In this document: positions 3,928 to 22,067 of the stretch, in pieces
Numbering within the stretch: the stretch's first letter is position 1
How the letters are laid out: each line of letters starts with the position of its first letter
Virus record (IMG/VR): IMGVR_UViG_3300020572_000043
Span: 1 to 23,293 of that record
Direction: 5' to 3' (one strand)
DNA from: a virus
Length of the DNA stretch: 23,293 nucleotides
Position numbers and translations under genes: made by a program
Notes under the pieces: model-generated
What the model was told of the DNA's origin: nothing
Seen by the model: only the letters and a program-made list of their open reading frames with translations
The model's database searches: none

Positions 3928-4057
3928 CATCCCGGGCCGGGGATTCAGATTCAACTCGCACCTCCTTTGCTCGGGCATGGGTTTCGGAGGCGGCACCCAT
4001 CCCCTCTGCCAACATGGTCAAGGGATGGGCCTTCCATTTTGACTCCCGCGTAGGGTT
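3928..4057 (+). other. Terminase-gpW spacer with competing hairpins
   Basis: This 130-base gap holds two mutually exclusive pairings. ACCCAT (3995-4000) can pair with ATGGGT (3977-3982). Alternatively, the overlapping CCCATCCC (3996-4003) can pair perfectly over 8 bases with GGGATGGG (4022-4029), followed a few bases later by TTTT. The layout recalls an attenuator, but the 18-base loop is large. The gap ends in copy 1 of the TTGACTCCCGCGTAGG repeat. A 21-codon ATG frame (3977-4042) also spans the hairpins and ends on the repeat's own TGA; it has no recognisable start signal. Confidence 0.3.
4039..4054 (+). promoter_or_regulatory. Start-associated repeat TTGACTCCCGCGTAGG, copy 1
   Basis: This is a perfect 16-base copy, 3 bases (GTT) before the ATG at 4058. 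Copies 3 and 5 have the same 3-base spacing. The function is unknown; it resembles the start-associated sequences reported in cluster K mycobacteriophages in placement, not in sequence. Confidence 0.8.
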
Positions 4058-4324
4058 ATGGCTCAGGCAACCGGGTGCTTTCTAATCCTATCTCAAGCTC
4101 GCATTGAGGCTATTGCTGACAAGGCCGCAAGCCTCTTGATGGAGGGGAAGACCATGATGAGTTACACGGATTCCGGCACTTCTGTCACCAAGTCCTTCCC
4201 TATGGATATCCAGACGACTCTGATTGAATGCCGATATGCGCTTCAAATCAAAGACCCGGCCCAATACGGAGCAATCGACCGAGTTCGCGTTTACAATGGA
4301 CTCTGGAACTTCCGCGGTCTATAA
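4058..4324 (+). CDS. gpW-like head-tail joining protein
   Basis: This 88-aa protein lies between the large terminase and the portal, exactly where lambda carries gpW (68 aa), which closes the head below the portal. Its plan also fits gpW: a first helix (ARIEAIADKAASLLMEGK, about 13-30), a short beta hairpin (TMMSYTDSGTSVTKSFP) and a second helix (IQTTLIECRYALQ). The ATG at 4058 follows the 16-base repeat with a 3-base spacer. Similarity is structural and positional, not by residue-level identity, so gpW-like is a reasoned call. A generic small head protein is the alternative. Confidence 0.6.
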   Translation: MAQATGCFLILSQARIEAIADKAASLLMEGKTMMSYTDSGTSVTKSFPMDIQTTLIECRYALQIKDPAQYGAIDRVRVYNGLWNFRGL

Positions 4325-4330
4325 GAGTTT

Positions 4331-5911
4331 ATGCCTAAGAAACTTACCAAGTCCCAAGTTCGCAAAGCTGTCGCTGATGTTAAGGCGTATGCCCGCAAAA
4401 AGGGACTGAAGACCATGGCCGACGGGTTCGGCGGCGGAGGTTCGGGCATCTTCTCGCAGTTTGAAGGCGCGAAGTATTCCAATAAGCGCCAGTGGGTCAA
4501 CACCCCGTGGCCCGCCGACCAGAAGAAGGTGATGACGGTCTTCGACCGCCAAGAGCTTACGCGCAAGATGCGCTGGCTGGCGGTCAACTCCGGACTCATC
4601 CGTCAGATGATTTCTGACAATGTGATGTACGCTATCGGCGACGGCATCCGTGGTCAGGCCGCAAGCAAGGACCAGAATTGGAACGGGCTGGCGGAGCATT
4701 ATTTCCTTGATTGGGCGAACAAGCCTTGCGACATCACCGGGCGATTCAACTTCTGGGAATGCCAGCAGATTGCTTGCCGCAAGGTGGATGTGGACGGCGA
4801 AATGTTCGTCCTCAAGACTTTCTCTACTGACGGAGTTGCCAAGATTCAGCTCATCGAATCTCACCGGGTGGGCACTTCTGCGGCCGCAATGGGTGCGCCG
4901 GAAGGCATGTTCGACGGCATCATGTTCAACAAGTTCGGAGCGGTTGTCGGCTACAATGTCATCCGTAGTGACGGCACGACCCGGATGGTTCCGGCTAACT
5001 CAATGCTCCACTTGCACCACCCTGAGAATGTTTCGGGTGCGCGGGCTTACTCCCCGATGCAACACAGCATCAACAACCTCATTGACATCCTTGAGATTCT
5101 GTCGATGGAGAAGCTTGCCGTCAAGACTGCCGGGGACATCACCCGAACCATCACTCGCGAGAATCCGCAGTTCGACGGAAGTGTTTCCGACTTCCAAGCC
5201 TTCGGCATGCGGCCGCAGGATTACCCGAATGGCGTTTACGACAACCCGGAACAGGTCGGCGCGTTCATCGGCGGTAAGATTCTCTCCCTTGCTCCCGGCG
5301 AGAAGCTCGACAGCTTCCAGAGCCAGCGTCCGAACGCAACCTTCACCGGGTTCATCGAGCATCTCCAGAAAGACTCGACCGCGGGAGTCCTCCCCTATCA
5401 GTTCACGGCAGACCCCAACGGCATCGGCGGCTCCGCCATTCGCCTCGTTGTCAGCAAGGCAGAACGCCACTTCGGCGCTCGCCAGCACATGTTCATGACG
5501 CGTTTCCTTACCCCGGTCTGGGGCTACGTCATCGGCAACGCCATCGCCCGCGGCGACCTCCCGCCCAACGACGAATGGTACAAGGTAAATTGGGTCACCC
5601 CTCGCCGCGTTACTGTCGATGCGGGCCGGGAATCCGCGGCGAACCAGAAGGACATCGCGATGGGACTCAAGACCCTGTCCGACCACTTCTCTGAGCTGGG
5701 CATGGACCCTCGCGAGGAAATCCGCCGCCGGGCCGCAGATGCCAAGCTCATCCAAGAAACCGCGACGGAGTTCAATGTTCCGGTTTCCTCCATTTACCAG
5801 CCTTCCAACAACCCGGCGGACATCGACCAGACGCTCGGCAACAGTCCTGCCCCGGTGCAGGAATCATTCACCCCATTCCCTGACGAATCTCAAAACAACT
5901 CCAATGCGTAA
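4331..5911 (+). CDS. Phage portal protein, lambda family
   Basis: The protein is 526 aa, matching lambda gpB (533 aa). Recognisable family segments are the early helix RWLAVNSGLIRQMISDNVMYAIGDGI (about 82-107), the central LIESHRV and MLHLHHPENVSGARAYSP blocks, and the late WVTPRRVTVDAGRESAANQKD segment with a helical clip/wing region around GLKTLSDHFSELGMDPREE. Twelve copies form the ring at the capsid vertex through which the terminase pumps DNA. It has a glycine-rich patch at about 32-38 (FGGGGSG). The last bases overlap the start of the protease gene by 8. The start at 4331 is the first ATG after the gpW-like gene's stop. High confidence. Confidence 0.95.
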   Translation: MPKKLTKSQVRKAVADVKAYARKKGLKTMADGFGGGGSGIFSQFEGAKYSNKRQWVNTPWPADQKKVMTVFDRQELTRKMRWLAVNSGLIRQMISDNVMYAIGDGIRGQAASKDQNWNGLAEHYFLDWANKPCDITGRFNFWECQQIACRKVDVDGEMFVLKTFSTDGVAKIQLIESHRVGTSAAAMGAPEGMFDGIMFNKFGAVVGYNVIRSDGTTRMVPANSMLHLHHPENVSGARAYSPMQHSINNLIDILEILSMEKLAVKTAGDITRTITRENPQFDGSVSDFQAFGMRPQDYPNGVYDNPEQVGAFIGGKILSLAPGEKLDSFQSQRPNATFTGFIEHLQKDSTAGVLPYQFTADPNGIGGSAIRLVVSKAERHFGARQHMFMTRFLTPVWGYVIGNAIARGDLPPNDEWYKVNWVTPRRVTVDAGRESAANQKDIAMGLKTLSDHFSELGMDPREEIRRRAADAKLIQETATEFNVPVSSIYQPSNNPADIDQTLGNSPAPVQESFTPFPDESQNNSNA

Positions 5912-7223
5912 TCTCTCCAAGGACTTCAAGGGCCAGCGCCCTCTCCTCATCCAGCCCGCTCAGGCGGAGGCATACCTCAACCGGGTCGGCGACATGGAAA
6001 TCCCCATGGACGCGAAGATGTCCGACATGGGCGAAATGCTTTCCGCCATCTTCGGCGAGAAGCCGACCCTCGAAAAGTTCCCGCCCTTCGCCATCATCCC
6101 GGTCAAGGGTGTCATCGGCAAGAACCTGTCCGAGCTTGAGTCGCTTTGCGGCTGTTGCGACATCCACGACGTCGAGGAAATGCTTGAGGAGTGCGAACGC
6201 GACACCTCCATTAAGACCATCATTCTCGACATCGACTCCCCCGGCGGCACGTCCGTAGGTGTCCCTGAACTCGCCAACAGAATCAAGAATTGCTCCAAGG
6301 AGGTCATCTCCTTCACGGGCAACGAATGCTGTTCCGCGGCTTACTGGCTTGGCTCTCAGGCCTCCAAGTTCTACGCAACCCCTTCGTCGTCCGTAGGCTC
6401 AATCGGCGTGTACATCGCCTTCCCTGACTGCTCGGAAGCTTTCAAGATGGAAGGGGTCAAGATGGATGTCATCAAGTCTGGCACTTACAAGGGTGCGGGC
6501 ATCCCGGGAACCTCCCTTGACGAGAACCAGCGCAAGATGCTCCAGCAGGAAGTCTCTGACATCCACGCCGACTTCAAGGAGGCGGTTAAGTCCGTCCGTA
6601 CCTTCGTCGAGGACAGCTCGATGGAAGGCCAGATGTTCTCCGGCAAGCGCGGTGCTGAAGCCGGGCTGGTCACTTCCCTGACCAATGGCTTTGACGAAAT
6701 GCTCAAGGAGATGGATGCGGCCGTGTTCACTCAGGTCGAGTCCGACGAGGAAAACGACAAGCGCCACGCCGATGAGATGGGTGCTTCTTCTGAGGAAGAC
6801 GGCGAAGAAGAGAAAGCGTTCGCGAAGGCCATGTCGGCCGCTGACCGCGCTCTCTCCGGCCTGAAGATTAAGATGTCCTCCGAGGAGGAAGACGAAGACA
6901 AGAAGTCCGAAGACGAAGACGAAGAGGACGAAAAGAAGTCCGAAGGAGACGACGAGGAGCCGAAGGAGGAGGACGAGGAGGAAAAGCCCGAGTCCAAGTC
7001 TGACGACGACGAGAAGCCCGAATCCGAGGACGAAGACGAAGAGAAGAAATCCGAGGACGACGAGGGTACCGAACCCCAGCCGGACGGCGAGGACAAGCCC
7101 GACGAGGACAAGTCCAAGGACGACGCGGACGACGAGAATGACTCCGGTGAGAAAGCTGTCGAGACGGACTCCAAGCACAACAAGGATTCGGTCAAGAAGA
7201 ACCGCTCAAAGGGAGTCGCTTGA
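5904..7223 (+). CDS. Capsid-maturation serine protease, peptidase family S49, with acidic C-terminal tail
   Basis: The protein is 439 aa from the ATG at 5904; the open frame begins upstream at 5619 but that part is a shadow of the portal gene. Residues 60-270 form an S49/ClpP-crotonase fold: DIDSPGG (109-115), the nucleophile S144 in ECCSAAYWLG and the general base K196 in SGTYKGAG. The 52-residue Ser-Lys spacing equals that of Bacillus SppA. Such enzymes (lambda gpC) process scaffold and portal during head maturation. From about residue 280 to 420 the protein turns into an extreme Glu/Asp/Lys/Ser tract with no hydrophobic core, unlike lambda gpC, whose C-terminal part overlaps the Nu3 scaffold. 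A separate scaffold-like gene follows. The tail may be disordered and act in assembly or be cleaved off. Its TGA lies inside copy 2 of the 16-base repeat. Confidence 0.9.
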   Translation: MRNLSKDFKGQRPLLIQPAQAEAYLNRVGDMEIPMDAKMSDMGEMLSAIFGEKPTLEKFPPFAIIPVKGVIGKNLSELESLCGCCDIHDVEEMLEECERDTSIKTIILDIDSPGGTSVGVPELANRIKNCSKEVISFTGNECCSAAYWLGSQASKFYATPSSSVGSIGVYIAFPDCSEAFKMEGVKMDVIKSGTYKGAGIPGTSLDENQRKMLQQEVSDIHADFKEAVKSVRTFVEDSSMEGQMFSGKRGAEAGLVTSLTNGFDEMLKEMDAAVFTQVESDEENDKRHADEMGASSEEDGEEEKAFAKAMSAADRALSGLKIKMSSEEEDEDKKSEDEDEEDEKKSEGDDEEPKEEDEEEKPESKSDDDEKPESEDEDEEKKSEDDEGTEPQPDGEDKPDEDKSKDDADDENDSGEKAVETDSKHNKDSVKKNRSKGVA

Positions 7224-7235
7224 CTCCCGCGTAGG
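7220..7235 (+). promoter_or_regulatory. Start-associated repeat TTGACTCCCGCGTAGG, copy 2
   Basis: This perfect copy overlaps the TGA stop of the protease gene (7221-7223). It ends 16 bases before the ATG at 7252. Like copy 4 it continues with a shared CTCAAC tail, marking a second spacing subclass. Confidence 0.8.
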
Positions 7236-7251
7236 CTCAACTCAAAGACCG

Positions 7252-7716
7252 ATGACCCTCGAAGAATCCCTCAAGGCGCTGAAGTCCGCCTTCACCTCCA
7301 AGTCCGGCGAAGCCGAAGCCATGGCGAAGGAAGTCTCTGAACTCAAGGCCGCGAACCAGTCCTTCAAGGACTCCGCTGAAGCCTCCGCCAAGGCCTCCGT
7401 CAAGGCGGTCGCCGCGGTCGCCGCCGAGCGCGATGCCGCCATCGCCAAGGTCGAGGAACTGACCAAGGCACTCGCCGCCACCGAAGAGCTCAAGAAGCAG
7501 GCTGTCTCGCAGATTGAGTCCGTCGGCAAGAAGTCTGCGTCCATCGCCGCCTCCGTCGGTGTCAACCCGGTGGAAATCTCCGCCGCGGACAGCGTCGCCT
7601 CCAAGTCTCCGGAAGAAGTCTGGAACGAGTACCTCGCCATCAGCAACCCGGCCGAGAAGCTTGCGTTCTACAACAAGAACCGCACGTCCATCGTCGCCCA
7701 TCTGGGCATCAAGTAA
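7252..7716 (+). CDS. Scaffold-like coiled-coil head protein
   Basis: This 154-aa protein is rich in Ala, Lys, Glu and Ser, with a long helical, coiled-coil-prone stretch at about residues 1-100 (SELKAANQSFK, AAERDAAIAKVEELTKAL, ATEELKKQ). The C-terminal part is more compact, with PEEVWNEYLAISNPAEKLAFYNKNR. It lies between the protease and the capsid genes, where scaffold proteins are encoded, and its composition fits a scaffold that the S49 protease could digest. The open frame starts at 7138, but the ATG at 7252, just after the repeat, is chosen because the earlier part overlaps the protease gene. The role is inferred from position and composition. Confidence 0.6.
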   Translation: MTLEESLKALKSAFTSKSGEAEAMAKEVSELKAANQSFKDSAEASAKASVKAVAAVAAERDAAIAKVEELTKALAATEELKKQAVSQIESVGKKSASIAASVGVNPVEISAADSVASKSPEEVWNEYLAISNPAEKLAFYNKNRTSIVAHLGIK

Positions 7717-7722
7717 TTTACC

Positions 7723-7959
7723 ATGGCTCTCCCTGCATCTCTTACCGCAGAAATCGGAACCCTCCTTTCTGGGTCTTGGACTCAGATTGTCGCAGACGCT
7801 GAAGCGAACGGAGGCATTACCAATTTTTCCTTCAGCATCAGGCTGACTGAAGTCACCTCTCCTACCGGCCCGGTCAACTACGACATCGGTTTCACTCACC
7901 GTTTCCGTACGGAGGTTTCCCAGAGCCAGTCTGAACGCGTCACCGGAACGGCTTCCTAA
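7723..7959 (+). CDS. Small protein of unknown function between scaffold and capsid genes
   Basis: This 78-aa protein appears mainly beta after a short N-terminal helix (LTAEIGTLLSGSWTQIVADAE). Alternating patterns such as NFSFSIRLTEV and NYDIGFTHRFRTEV suggest strands. It sits where lambda encodes the head-decoration protein gpD, but I see no real similarity to gpD and it is shorter. Possible roles are decoration, capsid accessory or regulation of head assembly. It is probably expressed, since it sits 6 bases after the scaffold stop and fits the operon. The start ATG follows TTTACC with no SD sequence. Confidence 0.55.
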   Translation: MALPASLTAEIGTLLSGSWTQIVADAEANGGITNFSFSIRLTEVTSPTGPVNYDIGFTHRFRTEVSQSQSERVTGTAS

Positions 7960-7991
7960 TTTTTCACCCACCCCTCACTCCCTAAATAATC

Positions 7992-8906
7992 ATGTCGAAC
8001 AACGTCCTCAATCAGGGCTTGGCTCCTCAGTTCGTGGCCGCGGAAACCCTCCGCACCCTCGTCCCGGTCCTCGCTCCCCTCAACAAAATCGTGACCACCG
8101 ACTTCAGCGCCTATGTCGCTGAAAAGGGTCAGGTCGTCCACACCCGTTTCGCCAACAAGTTCACGGCCAGCACCTATGTGCGCGCCAATGGCTTCGTCCC
8201 GGCTGACGCTGATGCCACCGATGTCGCCATCACGCTCGCTGACCATAACTACGTCGCGACCGCCTTCGACGACACCGAAGTCGCCACCATCTCGCTCGAC
8301 ATGCTTCGCCGCGTGTTCATCGCCCCGATGGCTAACGCCACGGTCAAGAGCCTGTTTGACGGTGTCCTCGCCCAGACCACTGCCGCTAACTACGCTGGCA
8401 TCGCCTACACGGGCACCAAGGCCAACTTCAACCGCGTCGCCATCGCTGGTGCGGCCACGAAGATGACCAAGGCTAACCTCCCGATGAACGACCGCTCGCT
8501 CCTGCTCTCGCCGGATGCCTTCGGCCAGCTCCTTCAGGATGCCTCCGTCGCTCAGTACCTCTCCATCGGCGACACCTCCGTCATCCGTGACGGCAAGGTC
8601 GGCCGACTGCATGGTATCGACATCTACGAGTACAACGGCTTCGACGCCGCTCCTGCGGGCCAGAACCTCGCTGGTATCGCTTCCTGCCGCGAAGGTCACG
8701 TCATCGTGACGCGCGTCCCTGCCGCCCCGACCACGGGTGGTGGCGAGCAGATTACCGTCCAAGACCCCGATTCCGGCTTCGCCTTCTCGCTCCGTAGCTG
8801 GTACGATTGGACCAAGGGTCTGTCGAACATCAGCGCTTCGTGGATTATCGGTCAGTCCGTGGGTAACCCGGACGCCGCCCTCCGCGTCGTCATCACCGAC
8901 CTCTAA
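7992..8906 (+). CDS. Major capsid protein (HK97 fold, P22 coat-like group)
   Basis: This 304-aa protein begins with a pattern seen in P22-type coat proteins: an N-terminal helix (QFVAAETLRTLVPVLAPLNKIV), then a segment describing the shell interface (EKGQVVHTRFANKF), a long spine-like helix region (DMLRRVFIAPMANATVKSLFDGVL), and a C-terminal beta region with LHGIDIYEYNGF and EGHVIVTRVPA. Position (after protease and scaffold, before connectors) and length agree. The gene is followed immediately by a strong intrinsic terminator, which fits a highly expressed transcript end. A longer minus-strand frame covers it but reads as a GC shadow. The capsid identity is strong; assignment to the P22-like subgroup is tentative. 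Confidence 0.85.
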   Translation: MSNNVLNQGLAPQFVAAETLRTLVPVLAPLNKIVTTDFSAYVAEKGQVVHTRFANKFTASTYVRANGFVPADADATDVAITLADHNYVATAFDDTEVATISLDMLRRVFIAPMANATVKSLFDGVLAQTTAANYAGIAYTGTKANFNRVAIAGAATKMTKANLPMNDRSLLLSPDAFGQLLQDASVAQYLSIGDTSVIRDGKVGRLHGIDIYEYNGFDAAPAGQNLAGIASCREGHVIVTRVPAAPTTGGGEQITVQDPDSGFAFSLRSWYDWTKGLSNISASWIIGQSVGNPDAALRVVITDL

Positions 8907-8925
8907 TCCAGAGGTCAGGCGGAAC

Positions 8926-8955
8926 AAGACCCCGGGCAACCGGGGTCTTTTGTTT
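8926..8955 (+). terminator. Strong intrinsic terminator after the capsid gene
   Basis: Left arm AAGACCCCGG (8926-8935), GCAA tetraloop, and right arm CCGGGGTCTT (8940-8949) form a perfect 10-bp stem, continued by TTGTTT. It begins 20 bases after the capsid stop. This is the best terminator in the window and separates head genes from connector and tail genes. Confidence 0.9.
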
Positions 8956-8959
8956 GGGA

Positions 8960-8999
8960 GGGCCAATAGACCCCTCTGGCTGGCCCGTAGGGGCGTTTT
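8960..8999 (+). repeat. Dispersed structured repeat, copy A (opposite orientation to copies B and C)
   Basis: The core GCCAATAGACCCCTCTGGC (8962-8980) is an exact reverse complement of 21191-21209. The flanks also match in part (GCCCGT, then G-rich and TTTT). Internal pairings include GGGCCA with TGGCCC (8960-8965/8981-8986), or GCCC-GTAG-GGGC followed by G and TTTT. It lies between the capsid terminator and repeat copy 3, so it could be a second terminator or an insulator. Confidence 0.75.
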
Positions 9000-9013
9000 G
9001 ACTCCCGCGTAGG
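8998..9013 (+). promoter_or_regulatory. Start-associated repeat TTGACTCCCGCGTAGG, copy 3
   Basis: This perfect copy lies 3 bases (GGC) before the ATG at 9017. It lies just downstream of the capsid terminator, so if transcription restarts here the repeat is a candidate initiation or control signal. Confidence 0.8.
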
Positions 9014-9016
9014 GGC

Positions 9017-9358
9017 ATGGGCAGTATCCAAGACGAATGGGCCGCAGATGCCGGGGAAATCCTTAACGAGATTCCCAAGGCTGTGACTGTTCAGAAAGCT
9101 TCCGGCCTTCCGGTGTCTTTCAATGTCCTGATGGGCGACCCCATGGTTCAGCAGGACTTGGAAACGGGTGGCTTCCTTGATGCGGCCGCATTTGATGTGA
9201 AGTTCCTCAAGGCGGACACCCTCGCCCACCCCGGCGTGGTCATCTTCGGCAATCTGGTCACCTTTAACGGCAAGCAGTATCGTATCGTCGCCATCAATGA
9301 CCGCCCTCCGTCGGCTTGGGTTATCGTCCGGGTTCAGACCAAGGTCGGTCCGGCCTGA
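9017..9358 (+). CDS. Putative head-tail connector/joining protein
   Basis: This 113-aa protein is the first gene after the capsid gene. An N-terminal helix (IQDEWAADAGEILNEI) is followed by a beta-rich body with GVVIFGNLVTFNGKQYRIVAIND and a C-terminal strand WVIVRVQTK. Size and layout resemble lambda gpFII-type joining proteins (about 117 aa), which seal the portal and receive the tail. A GxLVTxxGxxYxI pattern recurs in the protein at 10735-11076, suggesting a related fold. The call rests on position, size and predicted strands. The ATG follows the 16-base repeat with a 3-base spacer. Confidence 0.55.
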   Translation: MGSIQDEWAADAGEILNEIPKAVTVQKASGLPVSFNVLMGDPMVQQDLETGGFLDAAAFDVKFLKADTLAHPGVVIFGNLVTFNGKQYRIVAINDRPPSAWVIVRVQTKVGPA

Positions 9359-9360
9359 TA

Positions 9361-10254
9361 ATGGCTATCAAGCCCACAAAGCATGTTTCGCTTGATGCCT
9401 CCACGCTGATGGCTCACCTCCATGACTATTCAAAGGTCATGGGCAAAGAACTAGGCGAAGTCGTCCGCGAACAGGCCGGGCACTTCTGTTTGGACTTAGT
9501 CAAATACACCCGTCCGTTCACCAGCGCCGGGAAAGGCATGGAGCCGGGGTCAAAGAAGAAGGGCGAGGAGAATGTCCATAACGCACTCTTCAAGGTCTTC
9601 CAACCAATCGAAAAGGCGACCAAACAACAGGTCGCCGACATGCGAAGCTTCGAAGTCTTCAGGCTCTGGTCAAAGTCCCAAGGAGCTGGCAAGTCCAGCA
9701 TCTCAAAACAGAAACAATGGGAGATGTTTCAGGCCCGCAATCCGGCCCGGCGCACCCTAGCTTATGTCGGCTCAGATGCCGGAGCAATGGCGAAGACCCA
9801 CCAGAAACTGCGTAAATACTCCGGTAAGGGTGGTCTTGTTGATTACGCCAAACAGTCCAAGTCCGCCTTCGCTTTCGTAAAGAAGGAGTCCGACATCACC
9901 AAATACGCCAAGCAGAAGCTCAAGGACATCGGCTCCCTGAAGTCAGGGTATTGGTTCGCGGCCCAGAAGATTCGTGCAAAGGAAATCCGTGCTCCGGCAT
10001 GGATTAAGAACCACCAGATTGGTCAGTCCTACGCTATCGGTCAGGACATGGTCCAACAGCCGATGAAGCCAGAAGTGCTAATCGGCCACCTTTTCGGGCT
10101 TCGGGCTATGCCGAGGGGACTCCTCAAGTCCGCAATAAGTTATCGCCAATACGCCATGCGCGTGAAGATGGCCGCAGAGCTTAACAAGCGCAAGGTTCCG
10201 CTTTGGCTTGCAACGGCTCAAGGACTCACTACGAACACTCAACAACACTTCTGA
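9361..10254 (+). CDS. Putative minor tail/connector protein (gp10/gpZ position)
   Basis: This 297-aa protein is very basic, with many Lys in the middle (about 65-200: GSKKKGEEN, KQKQWEMFQARNPARR, KQSKSAFAFVKKESD). Its N-terminus (MAHLHDYSKVMGKELGEVVREQAGHFCLDLVKYTRPF) resembles the opening of HK97 gp10 or lambda gpZ-type proteins, in which an early helix precedes a threonine/proline segment. It lies between the joining protein and a tail-terminator candidate, as expected for that family, but it is longer than most. The ATG at 9361 is 2 bases after the previous stop. The basic middle might contact DNA or the acidic portal channel; this is conjecture. Confidence 0.5.
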   Translation: MAIKPTKHVSLDASTLMAHLHDYSKVMGKELGEVVREQAGHFCLDLVKYTRPFTSAGKGMEPGSKKKGEENVHNALFKVFQPIEKATKQQVADMRSFEVFRLWSKSQGAGKSSISKQKQWEMFQARNPARRTLAYVGSDAGAMAKTHQKLRKYSGKGGLVDYAKQSKSAFAFVKKESDITKYAKQKLKDIGSLKSGYWFAAQKIRAKEIRAPAWIKNHQIGQSYAIGQDMVQQPMKPEVLIGHLFGLRAMPRGLLKSAISYRQYAMRVKMAAELNKRKVPLWLATAQGLTTNTQQHF

Positions 10255-10255
10255 C

Positions 10256-10702
10256 ATGACCACTTACGGAATCCGTACAATCGCCGAGCAGTCCATGGCG
10301 GCTTGGTTCGCCACTAACGCCAGCATGCTCCCGGGCGTTCAGGTAAACATCGGCCAGACCGGGGAGATTCGCTCTATCCCGTCCGTAATCCTGTATGCGG
10401 AGGGCGCGGACTCACACCCAAGCTTCGGCTCCCGTCCTCTTGGAAACTTTGAGTTGAGCCTTAAAATCTACATCTATTCTTCCGCGGACGACGCTCCTAC
10501 GGAAGCCGAAGCTCTAAATCTGCACCGGGGCAGGGTAGAGAATGTTCAGGCAATCATGCAGGACTTGGACGGATTCAAGGCCGCATGGACGCAAGGAAAG
10601 CTGTACCATGCTTGGCTCCGCTCCGACGAGGAGGGAGTGTCCGACCGACGCTACGGCAATGTCCTGACATACACTGCGGTTGCCGTCTATCCCCCGGCTT
10701 GA
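10256..10702 (+). CDS. Putative tail terminator/completion protein (gpU-like position)
   Basis: This 148-aa protein has an N-terminal helix (IRTIAEQSMAAWFATNASML), a strand series (VQVNIGQTGEIRSIPSVILYAEG, FELSLKIYIYSS), a second helix (LNLHRGRVENVQAIMQDL) and the final strand NVLTYTAVAVYP. This helix-strand-helix-strand plan and size match the tail-terminator/completion families (lambda gpU is 131 aa), which cap the tail tube at the head end. The open frame begins at 10208; the ATG at 10256, one base after the previous stop, is used. The stop TGA lies inside repeat copy 4. Assignment is by architecture and gene order. Confidence 0.55.
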   Translation: MTTYGIRTIAEQSMAAWFATNASMLPGVQVNIGQTGEIRSIPSVILYAEGADSHPSFGSRPLGNFELSLKIYIYSSADDAPTEAEALNLHRGRVENVQAIMQDLDGFKAAWTQGKLYHAWLRSDEEGVSDRRYGNVLTYTAVAVYPPA

Positions 10703-10714
10703 CTCCCGCGTAGA
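10699..10714 (+). promoter_or_regulatory. Start-associated repeat, copy 4 (TTGACTCCCGCGTAGA)
   Basis: Fifteen of 16 bases match; only the last G is A. It overlaps the preceding TGA stop (10700-10702) and ends 20 bases before the ATG at 10735. The CTCAAC tail after it is shared with copy 2. Confidence 0.78.
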
Positions 10715-10734
10715 CTCAACACCAAGCGACCCTC

Positions 10735-11076
10735 ATGGCACTTCCCAATACTTACGGCGTTGACCACGATTTCGGCCCGGTCGATGTGACGTCCTCGTTC
10801 ATCACCATCCAGTCGGACAACCTCAAGGAGAACTGCAACCTTCACGTCGAAGTCAAGGACGCTCAGGGACGCATCATCACCGTCCGAAAAGACGACTTGA
10901 TTTTGGGTGTCAATTTCGTTGGTGTCCTTAAGATTGGCGCTACCATCCCCGTCCCCGGCAATCTGGTGACCTACGGGAGCGTGTCGTACATTATCGACGA
11001 CATCACTAACGACGGTACTAACGAGTCTTTCCGTCGCGTCGGCATCAACGGCCGCAAGTATCAGGAAATCGCCTAA
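10735..11076 (+). CDS. Small tail or connector protein, unassigned
   Basis: This 113-aa, beta-rich protein has strands such as SSFITIQSDNLKENCNLHVEVKD, DLILGVNFVGVLKIG and NLVTYGSVSYIIDDI. It stands where a major tail (tube) protein normally lies, between tail terminator and chaperone, but is short for one. The GxLVTYGxxxYxI segment echoes the joining protein at 9017-9358. It may therefore be a compact tube subunit, or a second joining protein with the tube protein elsewhere (perhaps 12889-13764). The start ATG lies downstream of repeat copy 4. Confidence 0.5.
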   Translation: MALPNTYGVDHDFGPVDVTSSFITIQSDNLKENCNLHVEVKDAQGRIITVRKDDLILGVNFVGVLKIGATIPVPGNLVTYGSVSYIIDDITNDGTNESFRRVGINGRKYQEIA

Positions 11077-11099
11077 GCCCCAAACGGGCTTAACCACCA

Positions 11100-11684
11100 A
11101 TGGACAAAAGGTGGATTAAGGCGGCAACAATCCTGCAACCCTCAGCCGAGGTTTGTGGGATTCGTCTTTTGCCGTTCTGCCTTCGGCACCGGGTAGCTCT
11201 TGAGGCAATCAATAGCCCAGTGCTTGAGCCGGGCAAGCCTATGACCGCAAAACATCTAGTCGCCGCGGCTAGGATTCTGTCTAGCAAAAGCCTCAGTGAT
11301 GTCGTGCGGCCCGCAACACTACGCGACAAGTTCTGGGTTTCCCGCCTCACTTTCAGCGAGAAGCTTCTTGTATTGGAAATCCACAAGCTGGTCGCCTACC
11401 TAAACGAGCAAGCCTTCTGGCCGCGTTTCTGGGAAAAGGGTGAAGGGACGGACAATAAGACCAGCAAGTCAGGCATCCCTTGGCAACTCGCCGTCGTGGC
11501 TTCGCTGACCCGGAATGGTTGCACACTTGAGGAAGCTTGGACGATGCCGGAGGCTGAAGCTATTTGGTTGCATATCGCTCATAGCACGGCATTAGGTGCT
11601 GATGTTTCTGTCATGTCTGACCATGAATGGGATGCTATCCAGAAATACAAGCGCGAGAAAAACAACCAAACCCCTAGCAACTAA
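11100..11684 (+). CDS. Putative tail assembly chaperone
   Basis: This 194-aa, mostly helical protein is encoded directly before the tape measure (3-base gap), the usual place for tail assembly chaperones. The N-terminal half describes helices (TAKHLVAAARILSSKSLSDV, TFSEKLLVLEIHKLVAYLNEQ). The C-terminal block IPWQLAVVASLTRNGCTLEEAWTMPEAEAIWLHIAHS recalls the helical cores of phage chaperones where a tight turn follows the first helix. Many phages make a long form by a programmed -1 frameshift here. I see no convincing slippery heptamer or overlapping second frame, so a single product is likely. Function is inferred from position. Confidence 0.5.
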   Translation: MDKRWIKAATILQPSAEVCGIRLLPFCLRHRVALEAINSPVLEPGKPMTAKHLVAAARILSSKSLSDVVRPATLRDKFWVSRLTFSEKLLVLEIHKLVAYLNEQAFWPRFWEKGEGTDNKTSKSGIPWQLAVVASLTRNGCTLEEAWTMPEAEAIWLHIAHSTALGADVSVMSDHEWDAIQKYKREKNNQTPSN

Positions 11685-11687
11685 AAC

Positions 11688-12887
11688 ATGGCTGACGACG
11701 TAAAAGTAAAATTCGGGGGAGATTTCTCCGATGTTTCAAAGGGTGCTTCCGAGGCCGTAAACAAGGCCGGAGGCGCGCTGTCCTCTTGGTTCAACGACTT
11801 CAATAAGTCCACGGTCGCAAGCATCACTTCCGCCCTTGCCCTGTCTGCGGTCTTTGGCAAGTTCACGGAAAGTCTTGGGAATACACTCAAGACCGCCAGA
11901 GGAATTGACGACGCATTTAAGCGTTTCGGAACCGGGAAAAGCTCACAAGAGTTTCAGCTTCTGGCGCGCTACGGCGCGGAAGTCGGAGTGTCAATGGAGG
12001 CCGTAGGACGGACAATGAACTATTTCGCCAAATCATCGGCTGACGCGTCAAAACAATCAGGCGAGCGAAGGAATGTCCTTCGCGCACTAAAATTCACCGA
12101 GGAAGAAATCCAGAAGAACAACATTTCTGCAATCGAGGTTTTGCGAAGGATGGCTGATGAATACGACCGGACCGGGCTTGAGGCCCTTTCAGCCCAGCGA
12201 GCAGTTCAGTTGTTTGGAAGTCAAGGAGAGCAACTTTCTGCGATTTACAAGAACGGAAAAATCAGCCTCGACGAATTCACCAAGTCGGTAAATGCTATGA
12301 GCGATGCGACTATCTCGAGCATGGCAAAAACCGACAAAAGAATTGAGCGCGCAAAGAGGACGCTTGCCGAGCTCAGTGGCCTGTCGTTCGCAGAAGTCGG
12401 TCTGGAAGGGTCTATCACAAAGGCCGAAGGAACAGTCGTCGAAACCATGTCTGGACAATACGGGCAAACGGGCGGTACCCCGGAACAAGAAGGACGTAGC
12501 ATCGGTGGGCAGATTTACAGCGTTTTAAAAGACGACGAGGACGCATTAGCGAAGGCTATCGAAATGCTCAGAGATTATGAACGGGACGATTGGTTCACAT
12601 CAGAGAAGAAAGCAATCACAGCTGAAGAAGCTGTCAAAACTATGCTGTTTCTCATGAAAGATGAAAAGAAAGCCCAACCAGAAGGCCCGCCATTGCTACA
12701 GGCCGCAAAGGTCATGGCGGCTTCTTCGCTTCAGGAAATCGGCGGCGGAGACATTAACTCCGTACTCTCTGGCACTTACCAAAGTTCAATGCTTGACGCG
12801 GCCAACAAGACTGCTGACAATACCGCCAAGCTTGTCCAAGAGTCCGGAAAGCCATCCCAAACTAAACCTGTGAACGTCGCTAAATAA
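11688..12887 (+). CDS. Tape measure protein (short)
   Basis: The protein is 399 aa. The start (DDVKVKFGGDFSDVSKGASEAVNKAG) and helical repeats that follow are typical of tape measure N-termini. The first hydrophobic stretch is SITSALALSAVFGKF (about 45-60). The C-terminal segment (ASSLQEIGGGDINSVL, then Q...ML..A.KTADNTAKLV) is a common tape-measure ending. In siphoviruses tail length scales at about 0.15 nm per residue, so this would predict a tail near 60 nm. It threads the tail tube during assembly and is ejected with the DNA. The middle is Glu/Lys-rich coiled coil. Good confidence from sequence style plus position. Confidence 0.75.
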   Translation: MADDVKVKFGGDFSDVSKGASEAVNKAGGALSSWFNDFNKSTVASITSALALSAVFGKFTESLGNTLKTARGIDDAFKRFGTGKSSQEFQLLARYGAEVGVSMEAVGRTMNYFAKSSADASKQSGERRNVLRALKFTEEEIQKNNISAIEVLRRMADEYDRTGLEALSAQRAVQLFGSQGEQLSAIYKNGKISLDEFTKSVNAMSDATISSMAKTDKRIERAKRTLAELSGLSFAEVGLEGSITKAEGTVVETMSGQYGQTGGTPEQEGRSIGGQIYSVLKDDEDALAKAIEMLRDYERDDWFTSEKKAITAEEAVKTMLFLMKDEKKAQPEGPPLLQAAKVMAASSLQEIGGGDINSVLSGTYQSSMLDAANKTADNTAKLVQESGKPSQTKPVNVAK

Positions 12888-12888
12888 C

Positions 12889-13764
12889 ATGCCCGAACCC
12901 TCCATCACCAGACTCAACTACGGCAACGAACTACTCGCTCCCGGTGAGCTTACTTTTTCCGGTTCTATTGTATTAGATGCGTTCGGTCTGGCACAAGCCC
13001 AGCTGACCTACACGATTGACTCCGCCAACAGCAACCTGACGGACACTATCGACATGGTGTCGATGGGCATCAATTATCCCTACGACGTCGGGTTTGAAAT
13101 GAAGTCTCATAAGTACGCCATCGCCCTTCAGCCGGGCGGCGTGGCGACGATGACGATTGACTTCATGGGAATCGCCCGGGGTGTCGGTTACACCGACGCA
13201 CAGATTTCCGGGGTGTCCACGACGACGGCACAACCAATCGAGACACACCCAAACTTCACTATCGTCACCGACCCGACAATCGGAGACCAGTCTGCTACGC
13301 AGATTCTTGCCGGACCTCCGGCCGCACCTTCCAGCAATCCGAACAAGCCAATCTTCATCCCTTCCGGGGACGCGCTTGCTCCTTGGCGTTTCGACGGATT
13401 CGGACTTCCGGCTAACGGAACTAGAAACCCGAAGGCTGGTATCCGTCAGTTCCTCCGGCCGATGTATTCCGTTCGCGGAGTCATTTTCTTCAACACGAAT
13501 GAGGGATACCGTTCCGCCTACATGACCAACGGAGTAGGCAGAACTCTCAAGACCGAGGGCGACATGTTCAAGCTCATTACTCCGAACGATGTCCTAGGTG
13601 CACTTTCCCCGGAGCTTTGCCTTCTGACCGCGGCTAATGCGGAGTGCATCGGAACGCCTGACAACTACGCCGGAATCAAGGTTGTCTACGACATCATGAT
13701 TGGCGGCGGAACGGGCTGGGATTCTGACATCTACGGCCCGATGGACACCGCCATCTTCGCATAA
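12889..13764 (+). CDS. Tail structural protein, unassigned (possible tube or distal tail protein)
   Basis: The protein is 291 aa, almost entirely beta by pattern (ELTFSGSIVLDAFGLAQAQLTYTID, HKYAIALQPGGVATMTIDFMGIA). Two halves seem separable: about 1-110, and about 130-291 with a Pro/Asn-rich link (GPPAAPSSNPNKP). The first half is a good candidate for a tube-like or distal-tail barrel. It follows the tape measure by one base. I do not recognise a family. Since the tail-tube gene upstream is unusually small, this could be the true major tail protein placed after the tape measure, or the distal tail protein. Confidence 0.5.
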   Translation: MPEPSITRLNYGNELLAPGELTFSGSIVLDAFGLAQAQLTYTIDSANSNLTDTIDMVSMGINYPYDVGFEMKSHKYAIALQPGGVATMTIDFMGIARGVGYTDAQISGVSTTTAQPIETHPNFTIVTDPTIGDQSATQILAGPPAAPSSNPNKPIFIPSGDALAPWRFDGFGLPANGTRNPKAGIRQFLRPMYSVRGVIFFNTNEGYRSAYMTNGVGRTLKTEGDMFKLITPNDVLGALSPELCLLTAANAECIGTPDNYAGIKVVYDIMIGGGTGWDSDIYGPMDTAIFA

Positions 13765-13766
13765 CG

Positions 13767-15350
13767 ATGGAAGACCTTGGCTTCAACGGCTCCGGCTCTC
13801 GGTTCAATTCTCGGTTTGAAGCCGGGTCGCCAATTCAAGCCAAGCAACTCAACGACCTTGCGGCCGGGATTCAGACAAGCTTGCCGATGCCGTATCTCGG
13901 CGAAGGGCCGTCTGTTAGCTTCACGCCGGGAGGCTCCGTCATCACTCAGAACCAAAGCAGAATCGAGTCTGACGCTCCTCCGGCCGCAAGCATCGTCCAG
14001 CAGTATCAGATGCGTGTCGCGTCAATCGAAGGAAACGAAGTCCTTCAGATTGCCAAGGGTACGGTCACCTTCACGCAGAGCAACATGCCGCGCGTCCGTC
14101 AGGGTGGTCACAACGACCAGCGTCAGGGATGGATTAGCAAGGTCGCCGTCTATGGTTCGAATGTCGAAGTTACCTCCGGTGAAGGCGACCCTCTTTGGAT
14201 GGACGGAAACGGCTACTATAGCGTCGACTCAGCGGGGACTTACTATGTCACCATAAGCAAGTTCGACATCAGCCAGTCCAACGACGACACAGAAAACGCT
14301 CTGCTCAATGCGGAAGCACCTTGGGTTTCCATCTTCAAGGCTGGCGACGACATTGAGGGTACTATCTTTTCGGAGACCGGGCCGTCTCTTTACGTCAACA
14401 AGACCAACGTCCAAAAGATGGTCGGGTATGACGCGATGTCCACCGGGCTTCAGGGGGACTGGGGCAACTGCCATACGACTTGGTTCAACCCGGTTAAGTG
14501 GGGTTACGCCGTGAAGCTAATCGGCATCGTCTACGCGACGAACGTCGTCGGCGAGGGAATCAGGCTCGTCATTGACCAGCACATCGTCGGACCGATTGAC
14601 CTACAGATTCCTTGCCTATTCAACGGCACGACCCTGTGCAATCAGGACGACCTGACGGAGACGAACGACCCGTACAACCTGAACAAGGACGCTACCCCGG
14701 CTTGGTCGCTGATGGCGAACGCGGACACCCTCAACGGCATGAACGCGCTGGCGGAAGCCAACGATGATTGGTATGAAGAGTTCGTAGGCCCGGCGGATTG
14801 GACGGAGCAGAATTACGACTACAAGCTTCCGGGAAGCTGTGCGGCGCAGGACGACGGAGAGGTGTGCATACATCCGTTCTACACCTACCCTCGCATCTTG
14901 AAGCCAAGCCCAGACCCGGCATTCTGGCTGTACCGCGCCAATGTTTGCGGAGGCATGGTGAACAATCTTATCCCTTGGAACAAAGACGGATTGCTTGCTA
15001 CGAAGCAGAAGCTTCCTACGAGCATCGACTTCCTCCCCCTGCTTGGGACGGTCAACATTTACATTCGACTTGGCACGGAAGCATACGAGTCTAACAACCC
15101 TGTCTTCCCTGTCATCGACGACACCGACGAATACTATCCTTGCCTCGTTCAGTACCCAGCAAATACGCCGGAGGAAATTGAACAGCTCCCGGTAGACACA
15201 GACGAGTATTGCTACCTCCTCATGGCGGTTGCGCGCAACGTCGGCGACCCCGAGAACTTCATCATCGACCAGATGGTCAGCGGCTCGCTGTGGGTTGACC
15301 GCATTAAGATGGGAACGCAGACGGCCCGATACTATTGGGCAAGAGTCTGA
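13767..15350 (+). CDS. Tail tip or minor tail protein, unassigned
   Basis: This 527-aa protein starts with a segment seen in several phage tip proteins: SRFEAGSPIQAKQLNDLAAGIQ followed by PYLGEGPSVSFTPGGSVI (about 16-60). The remainder is rich in aromatic, Asp and Asn residues with scattered Cys (about 290-390: LQIPCLFNGTTLCNQ, GSCAAQDDGEVCIHPF), suggesting an ordered beta domain, perhaps with disulfides or metal, facing outward. It is the largest protein of the tip region, after the tube candidate and before the fibre. A host-recognition or hub role is plausible but not shown. The next gene starts within its stop codon (TGATG). Confidence 0.6.
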   Translation: MEDLGFNGSGSRFNSRFEAGSPIQAKQLNDLAAGIQTSLPMPYLGEGPSVSFTPGGSVITQNQSRIESDAPPAASIVQQYQMRVASIEGNEVLQIAKGTVTFTQSNMPRVRQGGHNDQRQGWISKVAVYGSNVEVTSGEGDPLWMDGNGYYSVDSAGTYYVTISKFDISQSNDDTENALLNAEAPWVSIFKAGDDIEGTIFSETGPSLYVNKTNVQKMVGYDAMSTGLQGDWGNCHTTWFNPVKWGYAVKLIGIVYATNVVGEGIRLVIDQHIVGPIDLQIPCLFNGTTLCNQDDLTETNDPYNLNKDATPAWSLMANADTLNGMNALAEANDDWYEEFVGPADWTEQNYDYKLPGSCAAQDDGEVCIHPFYTYPRILKPSPDPAFWLYRANVCGGMVNNLIPWNKDGLLATKQKLPTSIDFLPLLGTVNIYIRLGTEAYESNNPVFPVIDDTDEYYPCLVQYPANTPEEIEQLPVDTDEYCYLLMAVARNVGDPENFIIDQMVSGSLWVDRIKMGTQTARYYWARV

Positions 15351-15841
15351 TGGGCGTAATCATCGGAGCAACCGACGCACTCACGGGCGACTATTACACG
15401 ACGTGGGGGAAGTTGCGCTCACCTATCCTCGGGAAGAATACCAATGGATATACGGGGTTCTCCACGATGCACAGTTCTCAATACGAGGCAGGTGAAGGCT
15501 TTATGACTTCATACGGGACGCTGCTTCGCTTCGATATGCGCTACGACAGCACGACGTGGTTTCCGGGCTACTGGCGGCCGACGTTCTATTTTTACGAAGA
15601 CAACCTGTTTTCAGTCAATGGCTGGTACGCTGAACTGTTCGTCCCGTCCCCCTCCCTGACCAATGAGGATATCGCCGAACTGACGGGGGAGACGGTCGTT
15701 GCCTCCGGCACAATCGGGACGTTTACCATCGCCTCGTCTTTCTTCACGCCAGCCCAACTCATTCAGGCCGGGTCAGGCTTTACCCCGCCCTACCCAGTCG
15801 AGCAACCTATCTTCACAGTCGGCAAACTAGCGGCATTCTGA
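15350..15841 (+). CDS. Tail-associated protein of unknown function
   Basis: The protein is 163 aa from the ATG at 15350, which shares a base with the preceding TGA. A TTG at 15335 in the same frame is less likely. It is beta-rich and aromatic (GDYYTTWGKLRSPILG, WFPGYWRPTFYFYEDNLF, GWYAELFVPSPS). The end contains GTFTIASSFFTPAQLIQAGSGF. No family is recognised. The overlap and composition indicate co-expression with the tip protein, so a baseplate or receptor-binding accessory is the best guess. Confidence 0.5.
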   Translation: MGVIIGATDALTGDYYTTWGKLRSPILGKNTNGYTGFSTMHSSQYEAGEGFMTSYGTLLRFDMRYDSTTWFPGYWRPTFYFYEDNLFSVNGWYAELFVPSPSLTNEDIAELTGETVVASGTIGTFTIASSFFTPAQLIQAGSGFTPPYPVEQPIFTVGKLAAF

Positions 15842-15854
15842 CCCCGGTCTGACT

Positions 15855-15870
15855 TTGACTCCCGCGTAGG
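15855..15870 (+). promoter_or_regulatory. Start-associated repeat TTGACTCCCGCGTAGG, copy 5
   Basis: This perfect copy lies 3 bases (GTC) before the ATG at 15874. With copies 1 and 3 it defines a class in which repeat, 3-base spacer, ATGG are fixed. Confidence 0.8.
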
Positions 15871-15873
15871 GTC

Positions 15874-16200
15874 ATGGCGGCACCGACAATCATTTGGAAG
15901 CGCGGGCAGACTTTCGTCGCTTCCGGCCCTTATGTCCCGGGCGAGGGCGACCCGGCCAACCTCGTAGGCGTAACTATCGAAAGCGAAGTCCTTGACTTCT
16001 CGCGGACGCGCCGCCCTCTTGCCGTCACCATCGGCGGAGACAACCTGACCGTCACCCTTCGTGCGGAAGCTTCCGACACGGCAGATTGGGCCGTCGGGAC
16101 TGCCGCCATTGACCTCCGTTGCGTAAAGGACGGGGTCGTTTTTGCCACGACGACTGTCCGCTTTGTCGTTGACCAAGAAATCACCCTCCCCAATGGCTAA
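15874..16200 (+). CDS. Small beta-sandwich-like tail protein preceding the fibre
   Basis: This 108-aa protein has an Ig-like or BppU-N-type strand pattern: [73 protein letters not shown]. Phages commonly encode such small adaptors before the collagen-repeat fibre, where they fix fibres to the tail tip. It overlaps the fibre gene start by 8 bases. The Ig-like fold is a pattern reading, not a family match. Confidence 0.55.
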
Positions 16201-18892: not shown

Positions 18893-18915
18893 GGGAAGGG
18901 TCGGGGTAAGGGGCC

Positions 18916-18960
18916 AAAAGGCCTCCACGGGCTTCCTAGAGGGGTCTTTTGGGGGTCGCC
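18916..18960 (+). repeat. Dispersed structured repeat, copy B
   Basis: AAAAGGCCTCCACGGGCTT (18916-18934) is identical over 19 bases to 21172-21190 in copy C. The following half, AGAGGGGTCTTTTGG, is close to copy C's AGAGGGGTCTATTGG. CCTC can pair with GAGG. It sits just after the holin gene. Confidence 0.75.
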
Positions 18961-19000: not shown

Positions 19001-19089
19001 AAATCGCACTTAGACCCCAAAATAAACCTTTCGCTGAGTCGGTTGTTCGGGCAAGGTTGTTCTCGTTCCACCAAACCACACCCAAACAA
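19001..19089 (+). promoter_or_regulatory. Early promoter/leader module, copy P1
   Basis: AAATCGCACT (19001) lies 19 bases before AAATAAACCTTTCG (19020-19033). A variable stretch with TTCGGGCAAGG follows, then TTCCACCAAACCACACC and the ATG at 19090. The spacing resembles paired -35/-10 elements, though neither matches the standard sigma-70 consensus. The CA-rich end replaces a Shine-Dalgarno site. Confidence 0.7.
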
Positions 19090-19338
19090 ATGAACACCAA
19101 CGACACCACCTCCCATCTCGCCGAACTCGCCAAGGAAATCGCCAAGGCCGAACTCGCCGTCGAGAACGCACAGCAGACTGCCTTCAAGTTGGAGCAGTCC
19201 GACTCTTGGGGTTCGTGCGGTCGCCTCAACTTCGGTCGCCACGCCAAGGCCGCGTTCACTCGCCTTGAAAAGCGCCGCCGGGAACTGCGTCGCCTCCGCG
19301 AACGCCACGCCACCCTTGCCGCTCGCCTCGCCGCCTAA
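19090..19338 (+). CDS. Small helical protein of unknown function
   Basis: This 82-aa, highly charged protein is predicted as two helices: LAELAKEIAKAELAVENAQ and the basic RLEKRRRELRRLRERHATLAARL. Amphipathic, coiled-coil-like patterns suggest a DNA- or protein-binding role. It is first in the unit led by promoter/leader P1. The ATG at 19090 is preferred over an in-frame non-ATG start upstream because it falls at the end of the conserved leader. Confidence 0.6.
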   Translation: MNTNDTTSHLAELAKEIAKAELAVENAQQTAFKLEQSDSWGSCGRLNFGRHAKAAFTRLEKRRRELRRLRERHATLAARLAA

Positions 19339-21162: not shown

Positions 21163-21224
21163 CCGGGGACGAAAAGGCCTCCACGGGCTTGCCAGAGGGG
21201 TCTATTGGCGACCCTCGTCCCCGG
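21163..21224 (+). repeat. Dispersed structured repeat, copy C, in a 10-bp stem
   Basis: CCGGGGACGA (21163-21172) pairs perfectly with TCGTCCCCGG (21215-21224). The repeat core, 21172-21217, lies between and can form two inner arms (CCTC/GAGG and GGGTC/GACCC). It shares 19 bases with copy B and 19 inverted bases with copy A. A folded RNA or terminator-like element is likely. Confidence 0.75.
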
Positions 21225-21267: not shown

Positions 21268-21348
21268 GTGCGATTTCCGAAAATAAACCTTTCGACCTGA
21301 CGAATCTTCGGGCAAGGTTACTCTCGTTCCACCAAACCACACCGACAA
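21268..21348 (+). promoter_or_regulatory. Early promoter/leader module, copy P2
   Basis: AAATAAACCTTTCG (21281-21294), TTCGGGCAAGG and TTCCACCAAACCACACC match P1 in order and spacing, ending at the ATG at 21349. Here the AAATCGCAC box is reversed (GTGCGATTT, 21268-21276) and closer to the core. Confidence 0.7.
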
Positions 21349-21660
21349 ATGCCCTCCATCAAAGCCAACAAAACCATCACTCGCGAAGACGAATCCTTCC
21401 TCGCCAACCTCATCGCCACTCGCTGGCTGATGTTCAGCGAGCAGGTCATCGCGATGGGCGAAAAGCCCGCCAAGCTCTCCGAAGTCGTCGAGGGTAACGT
21501 CCGCGGTCTGTACGAGCCGGGTTGCTTCCTCGACGGCAAGAAGTTCGTCGCGGCCCGCAACGAGCGCATCGCCAAGCTGGCTATCTGCTTCGCGGCTGAA
21601 GCCTTGAAGTGCGGCGCTCATCCCTCGGTCTTGGCCCACTTCAAATCCCGGGCCGCATAA
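21349..21660 (+). CDS. Small unknown protein
   Basis: This 103-aa, basic, mostly helical protein has SFLANLIATRWLMFSEQVIAMG and RNERIAKLAICFAAEALKCG as core helices. It is first in the P2 unit. No family is recognised. The start is the ATG at the end of the conserved CA-rich leader. Confidence 0.6.
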   Translation: MPSIKANKTITREDESFLANLIATRWLMFSEQVIAMGEKPAKLSEVVEGNVRGLYEPGCFLDGKKFVAARNERIAKLAICFAAEALKCGAHPSVLAHFKSRAA

Positions 21661-21746
21661 ATCGCACTCGCCCCGAAAATAAACCTTTCGCCCAGTCCGA
21701 TTCTCCGCCAAGCTCTCTTTCGTTCCACCAAACCACACCACCACAA
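21659..21746 (+). promoter_or_regulatory. Early promoter/leader module, copy P3
   Basis: AAATCGCACT (21659-21668) lies 18 bases before AAATAAACCTTTCG (21677-21690), followed by a CCGCCAAGCT variant and TTCCACCAAACCACACC, with the ATG at 21747. It overlaps the stop of the previous gene. Orientation of the AAATCGCAC box is as in P1. Confidence 0.7.
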
Positions 21747-22067
21747 ATGAAAAAGAAAAACCAAGGTTCGTTCGATGTCTTCGGTCGCTTCACGCGCCAC
21801 AGCTCCACTCGCGTGTTCAACGCGTTCTGCCCGAATAAGCACCACTTCTCCAAGCGCGTCCCTGACCGCGTCGAAGAAGAGTTCGACTTCCCGTTCGCCG
21901 TGTTCGGCGTCGCCAGCAACGCGCCGGGTCGCGAGATGATGCGCGTCAAGTCCACGACTTCCGTTCGCTGGTGCCGCAACGAAGCCGAAGTCGAGGCCGC
22001 ACACAAGTTCTTCACGAAGAAGGGTTGCGACACCGTCGTCACCACCAAGACCTCCGTCTGGGCTTAA
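21747..22067 (+). CDS. Small basic unknown protein
   Basis: This 106-aa protein begins very basic (MKKKNQG). It has several aromatic-rich strands (FDVFGRFTRHSS, EEFDFPFAVFGVAS) and ends in a helix and strand (EAEVEAAHKFFTKKGCDTVVTTKTSV). Compact beta/alpha folds of this size occur in phage nucleic-acid-binding proteins, but I cannot name the family. It is led by P3. The ATG is at the leader end; the frame upstream is not used. Confidence 0.6.
   Translation: MKKKNQGSFDVFGRFTRHSSTRVFNAFCPNKHHFSKRVPDRVEEEFDFPFAVFGVASNAPGREMMRVKSTTSVRWCRNEAEVEAAHKFFTKKGCDTVVTTKTSVWA

Follow-up and report, generated by a model that had tools for sequence, protein, structure and literature searches.

Each of five copies of a short repeat in the virion-gene block of this phage is probably a compact late promoter, of a family that would give leaderless or short-leader mRNAs. 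The copies lie in a 23.3-kb virus record (23,293 nucleotides), which is referred to as the window. They have the sequence TTGACTCCCGCGTAG(G/A), are all on the + strand, and each precede a virion-gene start (Table 1). Copies 1, 2, 3, and 5 are exact, and copy 4 has one change, in the final base. The gap between the repeat and the ATG is 3 bases for copies 1, 3, and 5, 16 bases for copy 2, and 20 bases for copy 4. Copies 2 and 4 overlap the TGA of the preceding gene, which is the S49 protease gene in the case of copy 2.

A pattern scan agreed with the first-pass annotation on the positions and strand of the five copies, on their distances to the ATG, and on the two TGA overlaps. Its claim that the repeat is absent outside the virion block also holds, both in the window and, by a full-genome motif scan, in the complete relative G002 (36.2 kb, with a 397-base terminal repeat). 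The repeat length it reported was too short: the conserved unit covers 20 bases, beginning with TTGACT-NNN-GCG and ending with an invariant A as its 20th base, which has C or T before it. When up to 3 mismatches were allowed, the window scan gave one other match, at 13664 on the minus strand in coding sequence. Shuffled sequences gave a mean of 0.22 matches at this threshold, and 0 of 100 reached six.

Table 1. Repeat copies, the genes behind them, hairpins, and the motifs of other clades
Feature	Positions	Strand	Description
Copy 1	4039..4058	+	TTGACTCCCGCGTAGG-GTT-A; predicted +1 is the A of ATG 4058, leaderless; gene g1
Copy 2	7220..7239	+	TTGACTCCCGCGTAGG-CTC-A; predicted +1 at 7239, 13-nt leader to ATG 7252; gene g2
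Copy 3	8998..9017	+	TTGACTCCCGCGTAGG-GGC-A; predicted +1 is the A of ATG 9017, leaderless; gene g3
Copy 4	10699..10718	+	TTGACTCCCGCGTAGA-CTC-A; predicted +1 at 10718, 17-nt leader to ATG 10735; gene g4
Copy 5	15855..15874	+	TTGACTCCCGCGTAGG-GTC-A; predicted +1 is the A of ATG 15874, leaderless; gene g5
g1	4058..4324	+	88 aa, no family match; position of small head-tail joining protein; behind copy 1
g2	7252..7716	+	154 aa; scaffold-like position between protease and capsid genes, before decoration and capsid; behind copy 2
g3	9017..9358	+	113 aa; directly 3' of capsid gene; behind copy 3
g4	10735..11076	+	113 aa; major-tail-protein position; behind copy 4
g5	15874..16200	+	108 aa; weak phrog_1084 match; before collagen-like tail fibre and lysis genes; behind copy 5
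Weak hairpin	3996..4029	+	CCCATCCC...GGGATGGG, upstream of copy 1; similar hairpin dG -11.7
Intrinsic terminator	8926..8956	+	3' of capsid gene, upstream of copy 3; stem AAGACCCC/GGGGTCTT, T-rich tail
Second hairpin-like block	8961..8999	+	GGCCAATAGACCCCTCTGG...TAGGGGCGTTTT; T-run merges into copy 3; relatives at 18910 and 21166
Clade B motif			TTGACANNNGGCTAAAC
Clade C motif			TTTGACN3-4GGCYA
Clade D motif			TTGCCAATN3-4GCARG; also present before tape measure gene
Clade E motif			YTACCN5-7CAATA
Clade G motif			TTCCAN5-7GCAW

Motif classes in related phages

The same five gene starts were compared in about 90 loci. G001, G002, G004, G010, and G012 each carry exactly five copies, all ahead of these genes; five is also the exact number in G017 and G035, and the genes are the same in all close relatives. 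In G034 the clade A pattern, that of the window, matches at one more place (TTGACTATCGCGATGGCTCA, at L147:9917), between the regulator gene and g1; this sixth match is probably due to chance. When the window is compared with G010, 79 of 80 motif bases are kept as against 24 of 80 in the 16 bases upstream of each motif, which argues that the motif is under selection.

Remoter relatives carry different bipartite motifs before the same genes, so that there are six motif classes in all. Before g1 the motif proper to the clade is present in clades A, B, D, E, and G, and clade C is irregular at this gene. The spacing of the two boxes differs between clades, and the distance from motif to ATG ranges from 3 to 25 nt across clades and is specific to the gene. 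Motif types are never mixed within one locus: the 13 loci flagged as mixed belong to clade E or have misassigned or truncated starts. Clade E has no clear motif before g3, though the terminator is there, and its g5 spacer is longer. Variants within a class also change together: all five sites of G017 carry TTGACTGTGGCGGAGG, and GCGGAGG stands at each of the three sites seen in L162. The motifs are uniform within a genome, and the concerted change of the sites points to one trans-acting reader.

Fixed adenine after the motif

In five of the six classes an invariant A, usually with a pyrimidine before it, stands at a fixed distance after the motif. The position was anchored on the 3' box, and unique sites were counted. 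The A is present at 36/36 sites in clade A (16 where it is not in the start codon), 22/22 in clade B (21), 3/3 in clade C (2), 18/18 in clade D (14), and 17/17 in clade G (17); that is, it lies outside the start codon at 70 of the 96 sites. Nearly all sites have C or T directly before it; in clade E the fixed A is less clean. The chance of such an A was estimated as a product of about 1e-7, a rough value that takes one observation per gene and clade and ignores the relatedness of the clades. The ATG is never upstream of the fixed A, and at g3 the two coincide exactly in clades A-D. In the window, the fixed A is the A of the ATG at three sites and lies 13 and 17 bases upstream of it at the others.

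A pyrimidine-A step at a fixed distance from the motif, which may reach the ATG but never passes beyond it, resembles a transcription start. Alternatively, the A could belong to the sequence that is recognised and not mark the start. If it is the start, transcription would begin at the fourth base after the 16-base repeat, and the 5' box (TTGACT) would lie at about -19 to -14 and the 3' box (GCGNAG) at about -10 to -5, the promoter as a whole extending from about -19 to -4. The ATG would then form the very 5' end of the g1, g3, and g5 mRNAs, and the g2 and g4 mRNAs would carry the short leaders given in Table 1. The two sites overlapping a preceding stop codon, copies 2 and 4, would be internal promoters, boosting the scaffold and capsid genes and the major tail gene, respectively.

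The surroundings of g3 are consistent with such a promoter. A strong intrinsic terminator follows the capsid gene and precedes g3 in all clades examined; between the terminator tail and the g3 ATG there are 15-61 nt. In clades B-D this gap shrinks to 15-26 nt, most of which is taken up by the motif.

Several conventional assignments were considered and rejected. The first-pass annotation had judged a plain sigma-70 promoter unlikely, and this judgement stands: no sigma-70-type match was found at any of the five sites, where -35/-10 hexamers 16-18 bp apart are absent. For a sigma-54 promoter, with its GG and GC elements at -24 and -12, a start about 12 nt after the GC would fall inside g1, g3, and g5, and the box spacing is clade-dependent. 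A hairpin or other RNA element was rejected because the CCC/GGG pairing is lost in copies ending TAGA or TAGGT; the repeat has no Rfam match, and no tRNA was found.

If the promoter assignment is true, the late promoters of many uncultured Opitutae phages would be readable from sequence alone, with transcription start predictions exact to the base in phages of a little-studied phylum. The six motif classes, with the same five genes and the same position of the candidate regulator, would form a natural series of factor-promoter pairs and a source of short orthogonal promoters. It would also mean that phages of hosts without Shine-Dalgarno sequences time and weight their virion genes via leaderless messages. 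The literature searched gave no description of these motifs and nothing direct on leaderless phage late promoters or Opitutae phage promoters.

Candidate reader of the motif

In every clade with a contig that reaches the end of the early region, a gene for a helix-turn-helix (HTH) protein of 105-255 aa lies there, just 5' of terS. The window starts just 3' of the place expected for this gene, as judged by G002; the gene would therefore be just off its left end. Members of the family show weak matches to various HTH families. The second structure model improved on a poor first one in the C-terminal domain only (pLDDT about 90 there). In a Foldseek comparison of the second model with the PDB, sigma-region-4 chains were prominent, with probabilities up to 0.93 and E values of at least 0.15, which are not significant; the viral structure matches were uncharacterised phage proteins. 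The C-terminal domain is thus predicted to resemble sigma region 4.

The chances that this protein is the reader of the motif seem about even. The link between the two is one of position and co-occurrence. Within clade A the recognition helix differs between GA-type phages (G017 and L162) and TA-type phages; G010 does not fit, and the covariation is suggestive only. In the proposed mechanism, host RNA polymerase would transcribe from the fixed A, and the HTH protein, with its sigma-region-4-like C-terminal domain, would recognise the motif. It is conceivable, though less probable than the promoter assignment itself, that a protein with only a region 4-like domain redirects the host polymerase to boxes within 20 bp of the start, giving leaderless late mRNAs in bacteria that do without Shine-Dalgarno sequences, with at least six co-diverged specificities. 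Two features speak against it: no sigma-70 promoter has its 5' box nearly so close to +1, and a recognisable region 2 is missing from the candidate. If this mechanism is true, it would be a new mode of transcription initiation.

It should be mentioned that a conserved basic protein of 113 aa with a winged-helix-like end is encoded directly before the HTH regulator (L040:3556-3897). Homologues or look-alikes of it occur in clades A, D, and G.

Comparison with known systems

The late promoters of phiEco32 and 7-11 are read by phage sigma-like proteins; the factors are 15% identical and have dissimilar consensus sequences at similar genome positions (PMC8948821). These promoters consist of tAATGTAtA or GTAAtg-(16)-aCTA, and their start lies at a distance of 6-8 (6-9) bp (PMC8948821). 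As in those phages, the elements described here are phage-specific, differ by clade, and stand before several late or structural genes. In contrast to them, the boxes are about 3-7 bases apart and the predicted start is 3-4 bases away. A further difference, which holds against T4 as well, concerns the factor: the late promoters of these phages use a phage-encoded sigma-like protein with region 2, but Sigma70_r2 was not found in the complete genomes here, and the candidate has only an HTH domain with a weak resemblance to region 4. The late promoters of AR9, AACA-(6N)-T(A/G), are used by its own multisubunit polymerase (PMC5312081). They are likewise compact elements ending at the start base, with T at -1 and a purine at +1, but their sequence is different and a multisubunit polymerase was not found here. 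Neither phiEco32/7-11 nor AR9 has the architecture described here.

Alternative explanations

There is a small chance that the motif acts in the mRNA as a start signal to which a phage protein binds to activate or repress translation, the late transcripts arriving by read-through from upstream. Every copy precedes its start codon by 3-25 nt, the host apparently does without Shine-Dalgarno signals, and the placement is like that of the start-associated sequence (SAS) of cluster K mycobacteriophages. The latter, GGGATAGGAGCCC, lies 3-7 bp before the ATG in 11-19 copies, in the non-structural half of the genome, and has a Shine-Dalgarno core (PMC3203893). The likeness to SAS proposed in the first-pass annotation is thus borne out by position, both being short, asymmetric repeats in one orientation close before an ATG; it fails in that the present copies stand before five virion genes only and have no Shine-Dalgarno core. 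Moreover, a signal of this kind would have to lie at a roughly constant distance from the ATG, but this distance varies widely and is gene-specific, and the A is fixed to the motif and not to the ATG. The strong terminators directly upstream of g3 would need read-through, and no 16S rRNA pairing could suit all six motif classes.

A compact promoter could also be used by a phage RNA polymerase that escaped recognition, single-subunit or other, in place of host polymerase with an HTH factor; the chance of this appears slim. T7-type promoters are contiguous elements of about 20 bp that end at +1 and stand before capsid and tail genes, and single-subunit phage polymerases typically use a contiguous element that stops a few bases short of +1. 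The AR9 late promoters are similarly compact (PMC5312081). Against this, no PF00940 match was found in 16 phage records, although the T7 record was positive as a control, and a T7-type promoter was rejected on this ground. The complete genome has no ORF of the size of a single-subunit polymerase; its ORFs of more than 400 aa are the helicase, TerL, portal, protease, tape measure, fibre, and the 527-aa virion protein family.

That the repeat is an operator or stoperator, at which a phage repressor blocks late transcription as in cluster A mycobacteriophages, is very unlikely. Cluster A stoperators are asymmetric repeated sites in one direction. The present copies are also asymmetric, identical, intergenic, and in one orientation, and the uniform sequence within each clade fits a cognate DNA-binding protein. 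A lysogeny module would be needed, but neither such a module nor an integrase was found, the latter among 14 genomes. The placement is also different: the sites are before five late genes only and the early region has none. A fixed A and its exact coincidence with the ATG would not be expected of an operator.

As a recombination linker, i.e., a short conserved homology joining exchangeable gene modules, the repeat is hardly credible: the alignment does break at copy 5 against G002, G004, and G012, where the upstream gene is replaced, giving weak support at one of the five sites, and 4 of 70 break points are near a site with 0.94 expected, but the other sites are colinear, the clade-specific sequence defeats homology between clades, and mosaics generally break at gene borders.

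Among the candidate roles listed in the first-pass annotation, that of an activator site fits the results. The translational, repressor or stoperator, and RNA-processing roles fit worse, because the ATG distance ranges over 3-25 nt, no Shine-Dalgarno-type pairing and no integrase were found, and a terminator precedes g3 in every clade.

Phage, host and other elements

The window encodes ParB, a Tet/JBP-type oxygenase, a GpA-type terminase, a lambda-type portal, an S49 protease, and the capsid, as well as a short tape measure and a collagen-like fibre. Protein relatives are plentiful in IMG/VR. In bacterial assemblies, TerL relatives were found on MAG contigs of Opitutales, Opitutae, and Verrucomicrobiota, so that the host is probably a member of the Opitutae; two of these contigs carry the clade G motif before g1. 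A host search with the 527-aa virion protein gave no match. The clade A pattern is nearly absent from three Opitutae/Verrucomicrobiota genomes, and a host element was rejected as the origin of the repeat on this basis. No Shine-Dalgarno sequence precedes any motif gene, and among 15 starts only a weak GGAG was seen, at terL; the host seems to do without Shine-Dalgarno sequences.

Some other features of the window were also observed. The gene for the Tet/JBP-type 2-oxoglutarate oxygenase (547-1515), which may modify phage DNA bases, adjoins that of the ParB-like protein just before terS. Acidic/lysine low-complexity repeats (6735-7126) lie at the C-terminal end of the S49 protease ORF. The 527-aa virion protein (13767-15350) has no PHROG match and is common to the motif clades, its clade A and clade D versions being up to 75% identical; this sharing suggests that its gene has been exchanged between clades. 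The gene 5' of copy 5 (15353-15850) is replaced in G001, G002, G004, and G012, and the alignment resumes at or close to the repeat. A terminator-like sequence of 43 bp occurs in three copies (8959-9001, 18910-18952, and 21166-21208), one of them directly before copy 3, and also gives a 38-nt inverted match between 8962 and 21172.

A second start-associated block, of about 80 bp, is found at 19015-19094, 21276-21355, and 21672-21751, before several small right-arm genes, and has the form AAAATAAACCTTTCG...TTCCACCAAACCACACC..AAATG. This block may be an early promoter with its leader. A part of it, TTCCACCAAACCACA, recurs in G001, G002, G004, and G012.
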